DNA of 64,000 nucleotides from Diatrype stigma. Its lineage: Eukaryota > Ascomycota > Sordariomycetes > Xylariales > Diatrypaceae. The stretch spans positions 1-64,000 of the forward strand of contig JAKJXP020000068.1 in the NCBI GenBank assembly GCA_022225965.2, in the 5' to 3' direction. Shown here in pieces: positions 5,104-36,000 of this stretch; position 1 is the first letter of the stretch; each line of letters starts with the position of its first letter. The notes beneath the pieces were generated by a model. The model saw only the letters and a list, made by a program, of their open reading frames with translations. It was not told the origin of the DNA and did not search any database. The position numbers were made by a program, and so were the translations under genes.

Positions 5104-5849
5104 AGCGTCTGGAAGTGTAGAAGTGCAGTGAAATGAAGGCTCAGACGCTGAGAATAAGCAGTAGAAATGCCTCTGATGGACCGATGGAGTAAGTGTAGTT
5201 GGGGCGTGAGCTGGGCGTGCCTGAAATAGTGGGCCACAGTACTGGAGAATAGGGGAGAATAGTAATCTGGTGCAGGGGTAGGGCATCGTCAGGCCCCTCA
5301 TGGATCGCCGTTGATGGTATTGCCCGGTGTTAGCCAGTTAGACCTTTTGCCGCATCGGACGGTCGAGGGCTGTAGCCCGTCATCAATTGGTGCGTTACCG
5401 AAGGACAGCACTAACCCCCGCGTTTTCCATCTGGCCCCGGGCGCACGATCATAAGTAAGGTTGTTAGAGGTTGCCAGGTAGTTACAACAACCTGGACAGT
5501 CAGGGCCCAGGGGAGGAGATGGGAAATCGATGCCCTGCGCGTTGTGCCTACAGAGCCTCTCTCCTCTGCAAGTAATTGCCCGACGGAACGCCGGGCTAGC
5601 ACTGGTATTGGTCGATTCACTAGAGGCCGTTGTCACGACGCCAGCTTAGACATCTTGGCTGCCAGGCCATGACTTGTAGCCATTATACGCGGAACCGGGT
5701 AGCGAGTGCGAGCGACGCGCTTACATGTAATTTCCTGGGGTCGTGAACAGACGCGATGCATGATCAAGTGATTCGGGGTTGATGGCTCGTCGTTGTAGCA
5801 TGGTGTGGTGAGTAGGTAGACCAGGTGGTGGCCTGTTGGATATCACGTT

Positions 5850-5974
5850 GCTTGGTGCTTGGTGCTTGGTGCTTGGTGCTTGGTGCTTGGTGCTTGGTGC
5901 TTGGTGCTTGGTGCTTGGTGCTTGGTGCTTGTTGCTTGTTGCTCGCTGTTTGATGCTTGATGCTTGATGCTTGC
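5850..5974. repeat. 7-bp tandem repeat GCTTGGT, about 12 copies plus diverged tail
   Basis: About twelve perfect heptamers GCTTGGT are followed by variant copies (GCTTGTT, then GCTTGAT). The array is clean on the left and degenerates to the right. Because 7 is not a multiple of 3, it makes a false 7-residue peptide repeat on the minus strand. I do not treat that as a gene. Confidence 0.95.
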
Positions 5975-30017: not shown

Positions 30018-31946
30018 ATGGATCAATCCGCTCGTGCTGGCACCGGCCTGCCGACGCCGGCCCCGACGCCGATCAACGGGAGCTCTCCCGCCGCCGCCGA
30101 GAACGACGAGAGGACACCGCTCTTGAATGGCAGTCGCAATGATGATACTAACAAGACGCTACCCCCGGCTGAGCAAACCCAGCCAGGCAGCAATGACGAG
30201 GAGCAGACTGTCGTCGCCGAGGAAGTCAAAGGCTTCAGGCTCTGGCTGATCCTCTGCACCTGCTGGATCGGCGTGTTCCTCGGCGCCATCGACCAAACCA
30301 TCATTGCCACGCTGTCCGCCCCCATATCCAGCGACTTCAAGTCCCTGAGCTTGCTGTCGTGGCTTGCAACCGCCTATATGATAAGTAATGCTGTGAGTAT
30401 ATGATAAGATATAAGATGCTATCTGAATCTTCGTACCCCCGCGGGACTGTCTCCCGACGTGATCCCGCTCGAATGCTAACATCACTACAGGGTACGTATT
30501 CTGTGCGATGATCGCGCATGGTTGCTTTCTTCGGGTGTCTCTGTTCCCCTGGTTTGTTTGATCCGAAGACCGTATGTTGACGTGTAGTATGCAATAGCTT
30601 GCCAGCCCATTTCCGGGCGACTGACCGATATATTCGGGAGAGGCCCGGGGCTTGTGTTCAGCAACCTGTTCTTCGCCGCCGGCAATCTGATCTGCGGGCT
30701 CGCCCAGGACGAAAAGGTGATGATCCTTGGGCGGGTCATCGCGGGCATCGGAGGCGGTGGTCTCATGTCCATCTCTAGCTTCGTGAGCACCGACCTCGTG
30801 CCCCTCCGGAAGCGAGGCGTGATCCAGGGGATAGGCAATATCAATTACGGCGCGGGAGCCATGCTGGGCGGCATATTCGGGGGCCTGATCAACGACCATA
30901 CTGCGTTGGGGTGGCGCCTGGCTTTCCTTGTGCAGGTTCCCCCGGCTTTGCTCTCGGCGGTGCTCGTGGCGTACCTCGTGCGCATCCCTCCGAAGGTGTC
31001 TGACAAGTCGTTCCTGGCTCGCATTGACTTCGTGGGTGCTTTGGCGCTCATAGTGTTCCTCGTCCTGCTTCTGTTGGGGCTCAACGCTGGTGGTAACATT
31101 GTCCCCTGGCTTCACCCTCTCCCCCTCACCACGTTGCCGCTATCGTTCGCGGCATTGGTTGGGTTCATCGTATGGGAGACTCGCGCGAGACAGCCGGTCA
31201 TTCCCGTGCGACTTCTGCTCCATCGGACCGTCTTCACAGCTTGTATGACGAACCTGCTGTGCTGCATGGTGAACATGGCGATCCTGTTTTACGGGCCCAT
31301 CTACCTCCAGACGCGGGGGAGCTCGGCGACCGAAGCAGGGCTCATCATCCTTTTCGGTCCGATCGGCATCTCGCTCTGCTCCGTGGGCTCCGGCTTGATC
31401 ATGAAGAAGACCGGCCGCTACGTGGCCGCGGGGGTCGCCTCCGTGTCTCTCATGCTACTGTGCGCCGTCATACTCAGCACGCTCAACGAGGGCTCCCCCA
31501 AGTGGCTGATGATGATCGCGTACTTCTTCCTGGGCTCGGGCCAGGGGGGCATGCTCACCGTCACGCTGGTGGCCTGCCTGGCGGCCGTCGACCACTCCCA
31601 GCACGCCGTCATCACCAGCGCGACCTACGCGTTCCGGTCCGTCGGCGGCACCGTCGGCATCACCGCCGCGTCGGCCGTCTACCAGAACGTGCTCAAGCTG
31701 CAGCTCTGGGAGCGCTTCGGCTCGCTGCCGGGCGCCGCGGAGGAGATCGGCCGCATACGCGACGACCTCGACGAGCTGAACCACCTCCCCGCCGGCTGGT
31801 ACGACGGCGTCATGTCCTCCTTCATGGAAGCCTTCCGCTCCGTCTGCTTCCTGATGCTGGGGTTGAGTTTCCTAGGCTTGGTTAGCGTTTCATTCATGAA
31901 GCAGCACAAGCTGCACTCGACGCTTTCCCGCGATGAGAGGCGCTAG
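30018..31946 (+). CDS. MFS transporter, DHA2 family, Fnx1/Vba-like
   Basis: Predicted 14-helix proton-coupled antiporter of 574 residues. Preferred exons are 30018-30392, 30491 (one nucleotide) and 30598-31946. The soluble N-terminus carries ERTPLL (31-36), an acidic dileucine of the kind that sorts proteins to the vacuole. The first helix is followed by GAIDQTIIATLSAPISSDF, typical of the DHA2 group. The TM2-3 loop has motif A (GRLTDIFGRGPG). Further helices run to about residue 555. Best relatives are Fnx1/Vba-type vacuolar basic amino acid exporters and multidrug transporters; substrate is inferred only. I chose the ATG at 30018 because the in-frame extension upstream has only a TTG. A simpler single-intron model (30393-30587) also keeps frame but inserts three extra residues (Y, A, I) in TM2. 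Confidence 0.9.
30491..30491 (+). other. Predicted 1-nt microexon of the MFS gene
   Basis: A single G lies between intron 1 (30393-30490: GTGAGT donor, GCTAAC branch at 30475-30480, CTACAG acceptor) and intron 2 (30492-30597: GTACGT donor, TTGAC branch-like site at 30577-30581, CAATAG acceptor). With it the reading is ISNA-A-CQPISG, which aligns without a gap to the TM2 motif of relatives. The CAATAG acceptor lies 17 bases from the branch A; the alternative GTGTAG is only 7 away. Confidence 0.65.
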
Positions 31947-32326
31947 ATCGGAGGATCTAGCTTCCGGTTCCCTGTCTCTTTGGCGACAACGACGAGCGCG
32001 CGTATATCATGATGAGACTGAGCTATATGTCCTACAAAGCCTGGTGGTAGATCTGACCTTCCAGTAGTGCCATAAAGCCCACCAACATCTCAGGAGAGGG
32101 TTTCGGTCCAGCAGATTCATTCATTCGTTCAATGCCGCCCTAAGCCGGCTTACGACTGGTATAGCGGGTTTCTTTCACAGGCCGATACTATAAGGTGGAT
32201 ACAACGCAAAGTAAAGCGAATACACGGCTAGTTATTTCTCAATGTTCGTACCTTAAAAAGGGGGCAAGTGATTAATACTCGGCACAAGCATAAGATATAG
32301 GTATAGATCAGGATGGTAATAAAGCG

Positions 32327-32391
32327 AAGCTTTATTTTTTTATTTCGTGAAATACATGTATTTCTAAGAAATAAAAAAATAAAATAAGCTT
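32327..32391. repeat. AT-rich inverted repeat (hairpin)
   Basis: The centre GAAATACATGTATTTC (32349-32364) is a perfect 16-base palindrome. Outside it, GAAATAAAAAAATAAA on the right mirrors the T-rich run on the left, and both ends finish in AAGCTT. The arms are about 30 bases with a few mismatches. The sequence could form a hairpin or cruciform. Confidence 0.85.
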
Positions 32392-32795
32392 ATTAAAATC
32401 AACAATACGGACTCAAAATCGACGCTAGCAACGCGCTAAATCTAGCAAAAAATCACATTGGTCAGAATTATAGAAAAGTGGCTCCGAAATAGCATTCTAT
32501 CGATTCCCAACAGCTTCACATTCGAATAAAACCATGAAAATAACAAAAACCTGCCCGATCTTTGCGTTCCATATAAATTAACGTACCTAAAAAGCAATGC
32601 ATCCATTTTGCAGCATTTCAAACCGTCCAGAATTAATGCTTTTGGATAGTTAAAATCTGGCGCTACTATTCGAATGCGACGTATACATAAAGCTAGCCAG
32701 TGCTGCAGTTATTTTTCTTTCTTTTCCTTACGCGTTACGCTTTTTCTACTTCTTTTTTTCTTTTCTTCCGCAACACCCCCCCCCCCCTTCCCTAT

Positions 32796-33040
32796 ACCTA
32801 TTCGACGGCGCTGCCCATACTTGCTTCCGTACGTGCCCCTATACCTGCCTGCCCCTATACCTACCTACCCCTATACCTGCCTGCCCTTATATCTACTTAA
32901 CAGCTACTTGCTAACCGTTTTATAATTATTCGACGTTGCCCATACCTGCTTCCGTACGTACCCCTATACCTATTCGACAACGCTGCCTATACCTGCCTGC
33001 CCCTATTTCCTGCTTCCGTACGTAGCCTATATATAGATCA
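32796..33040. repeat. Degenerate CCCTATACCT / GCTTCCGTACGT repeats
   Basis: GCTTCCGTACGT occurs three times (32823, 32948, 33012), each with CCTATA-type words nearby. TATTCGACG-type words precede the first copies. The copies have diverged, suggesting an old tandem array. Confidence 0.7.
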
Positions 33041-36000
33041 CGTAAGTAATTTTCACCGTATCCATTAAACAAATTTAGCGGACGACGAAGGACGAGGAAA
33101 GCTTCGCTAATTTAAGGGAAGAATAAGCTATCAGGAGTACTAAAATCGTAATACAATCTGAAGATTAAATTAGAACATCAGAATCATCGTTATTTTCCAA
33201 TGCTGGACTCAGGTTAATTGCTCATCAACAAACGATTTCATCACTCTGTCGTTCTCTGGTTTATGTGTGTTTCAGGTTACCAGCATTCATCTCTACTCGT
33301 ATTGAGCATCGTCGGCCTCCTTCGAGGCAGGGCGGGACATATACCCGGCGGGGTGCTCTCAGAGACTTCGCGTTTGGTGGAGGGGAGTGGTCTGGCGTGG
33401 CTGTACTTGGAGCGTCTCGAGATAATAGCGTTACCAAGGGTCCAATCAAGAGTCATGACATCTATCGGCCGATTTCCACAGTTGCGCGGTTGTCAAGCAG
33501 CAATCGACACCGTTATGATAGATGTCAGTTTATATAGCGATAGTAATAAGTTTAAGGGATGGACTGCGACCATGGAGGTATGCAGCTTCCTGGGCTCCTT
33601 TATTGTTTGGTTTATCCTACCTTAACCCGGAGACCACTGCAACCATACTTAGCTGATTACTTTGTGATAGTATCAAATAACCCGCCTTAATTTTGATCGC
33701 GATCTGTAGACACATGATAGATTGAAGTCGAAAATAGGGGTTGCGAGCTTAGCACGTTTATAGCCCAGTAATGGGAGCTATTGTCACGCTGTGGTCTCTC
33801 CAACACTGAAATCTTGATTTTGTCTCCAAGCTCCCCAACCCGGTTCAATTGGGAGAATGATGGACTGGACATTCTACCGCTTTTAGTCCTGAACGTTTTA
33901 TCTTCATTCTTCTTATTGGTCCCTGCGGACTATTTTGGTCGTAACTAACTGGTGTTGTCCTTGTATGTTGGGGTGACTATAGCCCCTTTTAATGCATATC
34001 TCTTGCTAAAGAAAAATAGGGGTAAAAGCGCTAGTGTGTTTGGTTCGGTCCGCGAAGTGGATTCTATATGTGGCTGTGGCGTGTACTCTACGTTGCTTAT
34101 ACTATCTATAGAGATGACTAAACGCTTTCAAGGGGATAGGGGTGTGCAGGGCCGGATTCGTCGCCCTGGTCCCATTTCACTCTCCTAGCAGGTGCAAGTA
34201 GCCGTCTCTTAATGATTAATATTCGCGCTCTGTCTCTATTATGTATTGCAAGGGACGTCCTGAAACACTACATAGTAGAATATCGGCGCCGTATTCAGGG
34301 GGTGTGGAGACTGCGCCGTGCGGTCACTCGAGTGCCTCCGTTCGGTTCACCCCTACGGCAACCGCCCGATCAGGACACCAACTTTAACGACATCCGTACC
34401 AGATCCTAAGTACCTATTTCAAAGCTCTTGTCCACTCTGGGCTCGTCCCCGAGCCGTCTCGGGATCCGTCAAGGGCGCGACGATTACCCCGAATTGACCC
34501 TACAGCTTCTGATTGAGTACAAAAGCGAGGAGTCTGTGGTTTTATGCTGCAAAGTGTGAAGCGACCAAGCACGAGTGGTTTTCCCGTCTCCAGCATCATC
34601 CGGATTGAAGACAGAAGCGACAAGTTATGTGCCGTAATACATAATGGTCTAGTGACGGGGTGTCATTCAGCTCTAGTTTCACAATAGTCTTCTAGGCCTC
34701 AGCAGGCTGTTACATTGACTGGGCCCTACAGCAGCGAGCGCCATCTTGTTGCCATGAGCAACGAATGTATGTAACAATGACGCGAATCGTCCAGGACGCA
34801 AAGGAATTTCACAGGTGGCAGGCGTCAAGGATCAAACAAGTCCACTTGATAAGTATTAAGCAGCAGTGCCGACGTGCATATGATGCATCGGGAATAAGTC
34901 GAAAGGGTTGCGCCAGTAATGCAACCATAAGGCAACCAATCCCCTTGCCATTCCTTACAGGTATCATATTATTTTAATGCGCGAACCATCAAGCTAGCTT
35001 ATGCTACAGTTCCAGATACCTAGACTTTCAGCCGATGGGTTGGTTTTGACATGTCGCTAAGTGACTAGCCCACCTGCGGCCGTCTTGGTGACCTTCAGTA
35101 ATTTAAAGGTGTTACATGGAGTTCGAGTCGCGTTTCTGTATCGGGTTTCCCATGGTACTAATAGAATTATAGGCTGTCGTTTAATTTCCACTTACAGCAC
35201 TCATGGATACTTCAAGATCGCTGCCTTGGAAAGATAACCATGGATCGGCATTGTTAACTCTCCTAGGCTGCCCCGGCCCTTTGCCATTTTGGCTCCGGGC
35301 AAGAAATGTTACATCCGAGCAATGCCTACTTGCTAGTAGATCCCATGAAGAATATTCGAGGTGCATCTCATGGATCTATGTCTTCCTGCAGCTATGCCGT
35401 AGCAATGCTGCGACACCTGCTTCCTGATTTCTCACTCTACTTTTGAAGGTCTTATCTTTCATCTCTTCTTGTCTGTCCCCTGCTTCCTTGCCCTGGAAAA
35501 ATTACGACACATACGCTTAAACTTGCAGAAAATAATAGCCTTACCTAGTTCAACAATGCTTGTTAGACAAGACCAGAATGTCTGACTGCGGACACCACGG
35601 TGGTGTTATCTCCTTGCTGAGCCCTTCGTTTATTGTTACTTTTACTCGATAATTGCATTTAGAGCTTCATAATACTTGTTCCTGTCAAACTCCTAGCATG
35701 AAGGTATATCCTCTCGGGAATACTTGACAACCTAATATTATCCCCCCTCCTTCCTCTTCCACCCATCCCCTAATCCACGGTGGGTTACCTACGGTCGAGG
35801 GGGCTTATGTTGGCCACCACATGACAACTGAATGAGAGAGAAATGGCAACGGACAGAGCAAACAGAAAATAGAGGAGCCTCCGGAGGGGTATAGGGGTGA
35901 GGAAGAATGGAGATGAAAAGATCCTTCTGAAAAGGGGGTCTCCACATTTTCTCATTACGCAAGATTGTGTCCTTGGATACTTGTTGGTGTTGACTCTATA

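Follow-up and report, generated by a model that had tools for sequence, protein, structure and literature searches.

Two splice signals that lie a single base apart raise the question of whether one nucleotide can serve as a coding exon in a fungal nuclear gene. The signals interrupt a gene for a DHA2-like MFS transporter of Diatrype stigma (Diatrypaceae, Xylariales), at positions 30018-31946 of the forward strand of the window, the whole 64,000-nucleotide stretch of DNA that was analysed. An earlier note, made from the letters of this DNA, had proposed that a one-nucleotide exon rebuilds TM2 without a gap. The proposal stands, supported by the sequence and frame of the gene, by the spacing of TM2 in homologues (116 of 120), by the enumeration of splice models, in which it is unique among those tried, by profile scores and by relatives whose translations are compatible with it. 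We put the probability at roughly 0.88 that the coding sequence is split into three exons, with the single G at 30491 in the middle; its exact splicing is predicted from sequence.

The gene and its predicted splice sites

The genome of D. stigma, 49,153,611 bases in 420 pieces, is reported to have been sequenced to ~146x Illumina coverage and annotated by ab initio prediction with Funannotate; the main text of the genome paper contains neither the term 'RNA-seq' nor the term 'transcript' (PMC12217926). The MFS domain profile PF07690 scored 155.4 bits against the homologue P0003 and 143 bits against P0001, the database model of the gene itself (cut-off 33.4). The DHA2 profile TIGR00711 was the top NCBIfam match of both, at 166.3 and 143.9 bits respectively, which is under its cut-off of 230.2, and EmrB was the best PDB sequence match with P0003 as the query. 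Elsewhere in the genome the protein has 76 matches beyond the gene's own two, all at most 44% identical, and these were left out of the comparison of intron positions. A scan of viral contigs returned no relative. Downstream of the gene, 32001-34000 is the 2-kb block of lowest G+C in the window (0.43 versus 0.61 for the gene's block) and holds short tandem repeats at 32834-32896; an array of ~18 copies of TGCTTGG (94% matches) lies at 5849-5973.

Every splice letter that had been placed between 30392 and 30598 (GTGAGT, CTAAC, CTACAG, G and GTACGT) is present there (Table 1). One base separates the acceptor AG from the donor GT, both introns are otherwise canonical, and without that base neither the frame nor the protein comes out right. 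On translation, removal of 30393-30490 and 30492-30597 with retention of G30491 gives 574 amino acids, reading WLATAYMISNAACQPISGRLTDIFGR, in which TM2 is ISNAACQPISG (segment WLATAYMISNAACQPISG). The 3' end of intron 2 is weaker, with TTGAC, CAATAG and a second TAG 10 bases earlier, and this we counted against the one-base exon. The skipped TAG, ending at 30587, stands 7 nt past the probable branch A of intron 2. An AG very close to the branch point is poorly used.

Table 1. Predicted exons, introns and branch motifs of the transporter gene (positions in the window)
Feature	Position	Strand	Description
Exon 1	30018..30392	+	125 codons; ends in phase 0 at SNA; final codon GCT
Intron 1	30393..30490	+	98 nt; donor GTGAGT at 30393, branch CTAAC, acceptor CAG (CTACAG to 30490)
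Intron 1 branch motif CTAAC	30476..30480	+	Branch A 30479; 11 nt from A to acceptor G
Single-nucleotide exon G	30491	+	Predicted; first base of the second Ala codon in SNA-A-CQP
Intron 2	30492..30597	+	106 nt; donor GTACGT, acceptor TAG
Intron 2 probable branch TTGAC	30577..30581	+	A 30580; 17 nt before the acceptor used; putative
Last coding exon	30598..31946	+	Phase 1; starts CT-TGC-CAG (CTTGCCAG); 448 further residues; stop TAG 31944-31946

Spacing of TM2 in homologues

Relatives carrying three extra residues in TM2 had been named as the observation that would speak against the one-base exon. In 116 of the best 120 among 2,413 matches the count from SW..Y to GRLT is exactly 22 residues, as in the one-base-exon protein, and nearly all of these 116 contain NAACQP. 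The four exceptions are P0001, which is SLS62_007823 and reads AYMITCQP across a joint at 30384/30598, and three models from Monosporascus (placed by NCBI in Xylariales incertae sedis) that are broken at the joint: P0002 (SNA/PISG), P0055 (SNA/DENA) and P0031 (SNA/GTYNHDL). Failures of annotation at this joint are thus confined to the Diatrype and Monosporascus models, the other 116 being free of them, and we consider that SLS62_007823 is probably wrong at 30385-30597 and that the three Monosporascus models are probably wrong at the same place.

Within the motif N117, A118 and A119 are invariant in all 27 aligned homologues, and the motif lies inside helix 103-131 of the predicted structure of P0003, for which the mean pLDDT is only 68. 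Besides P0001, no full-length match among those listed exceeds 82% identity, so the whole spliced motif is shown by no close relative. The homologues P0121-P0123 start downstream of the joint and are uninformative on it.

Enumeration of splice models and rival explanations

With GT or GC donors from 30300 and AG acceptors to 30679, 33 single-intron models are in frame, and none of them gives the conserved length or protein. The set includes 30385-30597 and 30397-30597, and the earlier note was therefore mistaken in taking 30393-30587 for the only in-frame alternative. For in-frame two-intron models (GT-AG, introns of at least 40 nt) the conserved protein is produced by one in 77, five more having equal length and another sequence. 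Two-step excisions, nested introns and donors made at a junction included, gave the exact protein in two of 5,701 cases, which are the same two introns removed in either order; 16 others agree in length only. Scoring 111 entries, with the one-base-exon model entered twice, against a profile of 118 homologues gave 1039.2 bits for this model, 1031.2 for 30397-30597, 1030.6 for 30393-30587, 1029.9 for 30390-30587 (GC donor) and 1021.2 for the database model 30385-30597. The one-base-exon model outscores the best single-intron rival by 8 bits, a margin that we counted against it. Introns predicted ab initio in 197,537 bases formed 23 candidate groups, 9 of them with one solution; this set was too small for a splice-site model and went unused.

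The single intron with the best score, 30397-30597 (201 nt, donor GTATAT), is in frame and stands second in the profile ranking, yet we regard it as very unlikely. It would give TM2 one more residue (SNAVTCQP), at a cost of 8.0 bits, and the resulting 23 residues at TM2 occur in 0 of the 120 homologues compared. Its donor hexamer shows no enrichment ahead of branch sites (0.49, 3 cases), it leaves an intact CTAAC-CAG-G-GTACGT unexplained in mid-intron, and it does not fit the Monosporascus joints SNA/PISG and SNA/DENA. Just as improbable is one intron at 30393-30587 (195 nt), which is in frame and has a strong GTGAGT donor but does not score best among single introns. It would add Y-A-I to TM2, in a stretch that lies within the helix predicted for P0003 and whose length is fixed in 116 of the 120 homologues, and its acceptor is 7 nt from the likely branch A. 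It also scores 8.6 bits below the one-base-exon model.

We give scarcely any credence to the intron of the deposited SLS62_007823 itself, 30385-30597 (213 nt, donor GTAATG). It is the model present in databases, the genome paper describing ab initio prediction, and it leaves TM2 three residues short (AYMITCQP), with the otherwise invariant N117, A118 and A119 lost or replaced and a score 18 bits worse. A pseudogene or an assembly error, in which a single intron is accompanied by one base too few or too many, would likewise disrupt the frame at the joint, but can be dismissed as hardly credible given the reported coverage, a last exon that is open for 448 residues, close to homologues, the failure of three Monosporascus models at the same joint and the fit of P0127 to the matching junction (below).

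Chance expectation of the splice signals

AGNGT occurs once within the 205 bases of 30393-30597. In dinucleotide shuffles of 30399-30591 the bare AGNGT is common (4,254 of 20,000), YAG-N-GTRNGT is found in 92 of 20,000, and a branch motif followed by YAG, one base and GTRNGT in five of 20,000, rising to 27 of 20,000 when the middle exon may have 1, 4, 7 or 10 bases. The CTAAC...CAG-G-GTACGT arrangement is beyond chance. Branch plus YAG-N-GTRNGT has one occurrence, the present one, in 197,537 bases of the genome (395,074 over both strands), a base rate drawn from only 0.2 Mb.

Upstream of 296 branch plus YAG motifs, with the present site masked, GTGAGT was enriched 2.90-fold (11 cases) and GTACGT 1.68-fold (7), compared with 0.89 for GTATGT (6), 0.71 for GTAATG (2) and 0.49 for GTATAT. 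Several non-donor hexamers, GTGTAA and GTTGAC among them, were about as enriched as GTACGT; together with the small counts, this means that the donor statistics add little.

Relatives that carry the joint

A protein search with exon 1 only returned 60 matches, of which 50 continue into the QP motif and seven (P0126-P0131 and P0133) diverge from the protein directly behind SNA; in P0151 and P0177 the departure comes earlier, and P0178 falls outside the pattern. P0126 is 94% identical over 126 amino acids, and in exon 1 P0128 shares 82-90% identity with the Monosporascus models across 92-102 residues. In P0126, P0127, P0128 and P0129-P0131 SNA is followed by V-S, which is compatible with a phase-0 GTGAGT donor provided that these translations are, as we take them to be, unspliced.

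P0127 (7 member sequences, 10 contigs) is open through all of intron 1, reading VSITEHPRLAPERLLRTSNSNIAI and then GYVLYVIARGRFL, and its intron 1 would be 73 nt long, compared with 98 in D. stigma. Its NIAI-GYV aligns with SNANITT-GYV-FCAMIAHGCFL in the matching D. stigma frame, where 0 of 5,000 shuffles align as well, against 4,960 and 3,076 of 5,000 for the other two frames. Back-translated, P0127 is compatible with a CTAAC at the same distance of 11 bases from the acceptor G, followed by G and GTAYGT; since these relatives are known as protein, the back-translation assumes third codon positions, namely the final A of ATH and the final G of GGN.

The SNA-GTY of P0031 is the reading that the D. 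stigma DNA would give with intron 1 alone removed. Intron 1 is presumably present in that strain, because the joints of P0002 and P0055 need GT directly after SNA; P0031 could also be without intron 1, as P0133 appears to be. P0133 reads SNA-GMYRV, compatible with one phase-1 intron, G/GTATGT, and no intron 1, and is 85-93% identical in the shared part to its close relatives P0129-P0131, with their phase-0 GTGAGT; the pair presents a possible one-base intron shift. P0151, whose best matches are Xylariaceae proteins, has a donor-like V-S-I after SLLP, earlier than the D. stigma joint, so the positions of introns in this gene seem to vary within the order.

Proposed order of splicing and origin

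On this reading of the sequence the spliceosome would recognize two ordinary U2 introns of ~100 nt each by intron definition and excise each in a reaction of its own. In AGGGTACGT the intron 1 acceptor and the intron 2 donor overlap and probably cannot be occupied at once, from which splicing would probably be sequential. Either order would lead to the same mRNA, GCT + G + CT, for Ala-Ala, and on paper both orders in the two-step enumeration yield the protein. GTACGT is already complete before any splicing, so that the sequence does not dictate the order, unlike in spliceosomal twin introns (stwintrons). If intron 2 alone were retained, translation would stop after six residues (GTYSVR), and skipping of G30491 would shift the frame by simple arithmetic; errors of splicing would thus be costly.

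Tentatively, the one-base exon may be an old feature of the lineage in which one intron was gained exactly one base from another. Loss of either would then leave introns one base apart, so that such exons would be a route to single-nucleotide intron sliding, and P0133 (SNA-GMY, apparently intron 2 only) and P0129-P0131 (SNA-VSF, apparently with intron 1) might represent two states of it.

Comparison with known systems

The earlier note had called one-nucleotide exons almost undescribed, which is fair as to their rarity but passes over published cases in two plant genes and, in 2026, in one fungal gene. The fungal gene is from Fusarium, which belongs to another order than D. stigma. Its CYP621A is reported to contain a single-nucleotide exon, a G in AG-G-GT, that is confirmed by RNA reads and was misannotated (PMC12940212). 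The likeness is close: both are fungal nuclear genes with the same AG-G-GT, in both the base is needed for a conserved motif, and in both, on the reading proposed here for D. stigma, automated models are wrong at the joint and the exon is conserved within a lineage. They differ in that CYP621A is another gene and its exon is confirmed by RNA, whereas ours is predicted, and in that the Fusarium G stands in the middle of a Gly codon and the D. stigma G opens an Ala codon (PMC12940212). In plants, the Arabidopsis APC11 microexon, the base A, was shown by RNA-seq, RT-PCR and GFP constructs (PMC4674806), and the one-nucleotide microexons of VPS55 and APC11, conserved across land plants, were proven by RNA-seq and RT-PCR (PMC8831610). 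These plant exons, RNA-proven and in Arabidopsis APC11 an A rather than a G, share with the predicted D. stigma exon the single base between canonical introns, the absence from annotations and, as it appears, the wide conservation and the relatives with intron loss (PMC4674806, PMC8831610). One-base-exon cases in placozoans and Ophiostoma are mitochondrial according to their titles. The predicted D. stigma exon is a further case of the published one-base exons, not a new kind.

Stwintrons of the types [D1,2] and [D2,3] are described from Pezizomycotina, many of them in the Hypoxylaceae, which also belong to Xylariales (PMC5639578, PMC9024468, PMC12403724). They resemble the present pair as two adjoining U2 introns that need two reactions, in one described case with a misread annotation (PMC5639578). 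In a stwintron, however, one of the outer intron's splice elements is divided by the internal intron, whereas in D. stigma nothing interrupts the second donor and a single base is retained. The analogy with twin introns drawn in the earlier note therefore fails, and we reject membership: GTACGT is contiguous in the pre-mRNA, no internal intron interrupts a splice element and no nested parse gives the exact protein. Diatryp, Monosporascus and Eutypa are unmentioned in the main text of PMC12403724, and Diatryp in PMC9024468. An introner or a repeated stwintron family is likewise rejected, as each intron matches only itself in the genome; no second copy of intron 1 or 2 was found there at E 0.001 in a search that skips very common words, and blastn of intron 1 against intron 2 gave no match.

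Recursive splice sites retain no base and break up long introns, in contrast to the D. stigma joint, which keeps one base that is needed for the frame. The likeness lies in an acceptor nearly abutting a donor: in recursive splicing and zero-length exons, an acceptor is followed almost at once by a donor (PMC5126111).

If confirmed, the D. stigma transporter would be a further nuclear gene with a one-base exon beside APC11, VPS55 and CYP621A, and the second fungal one among these. It would mean that, in a conserved gene, splice sites separated by one base can both be used by the spliceosome of filamentous fungi, and the one-base exon would account for the failure of annotation at this point in two genera. 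In relatives, the neighbouring states (P0129-P0133) would provide a test both of the origin of a one-base exon and of the disputed one-base intron shift, and this question of origin, the gain of an intron one base from another with a possible shift by one base, may be the more interesting part of the finding.
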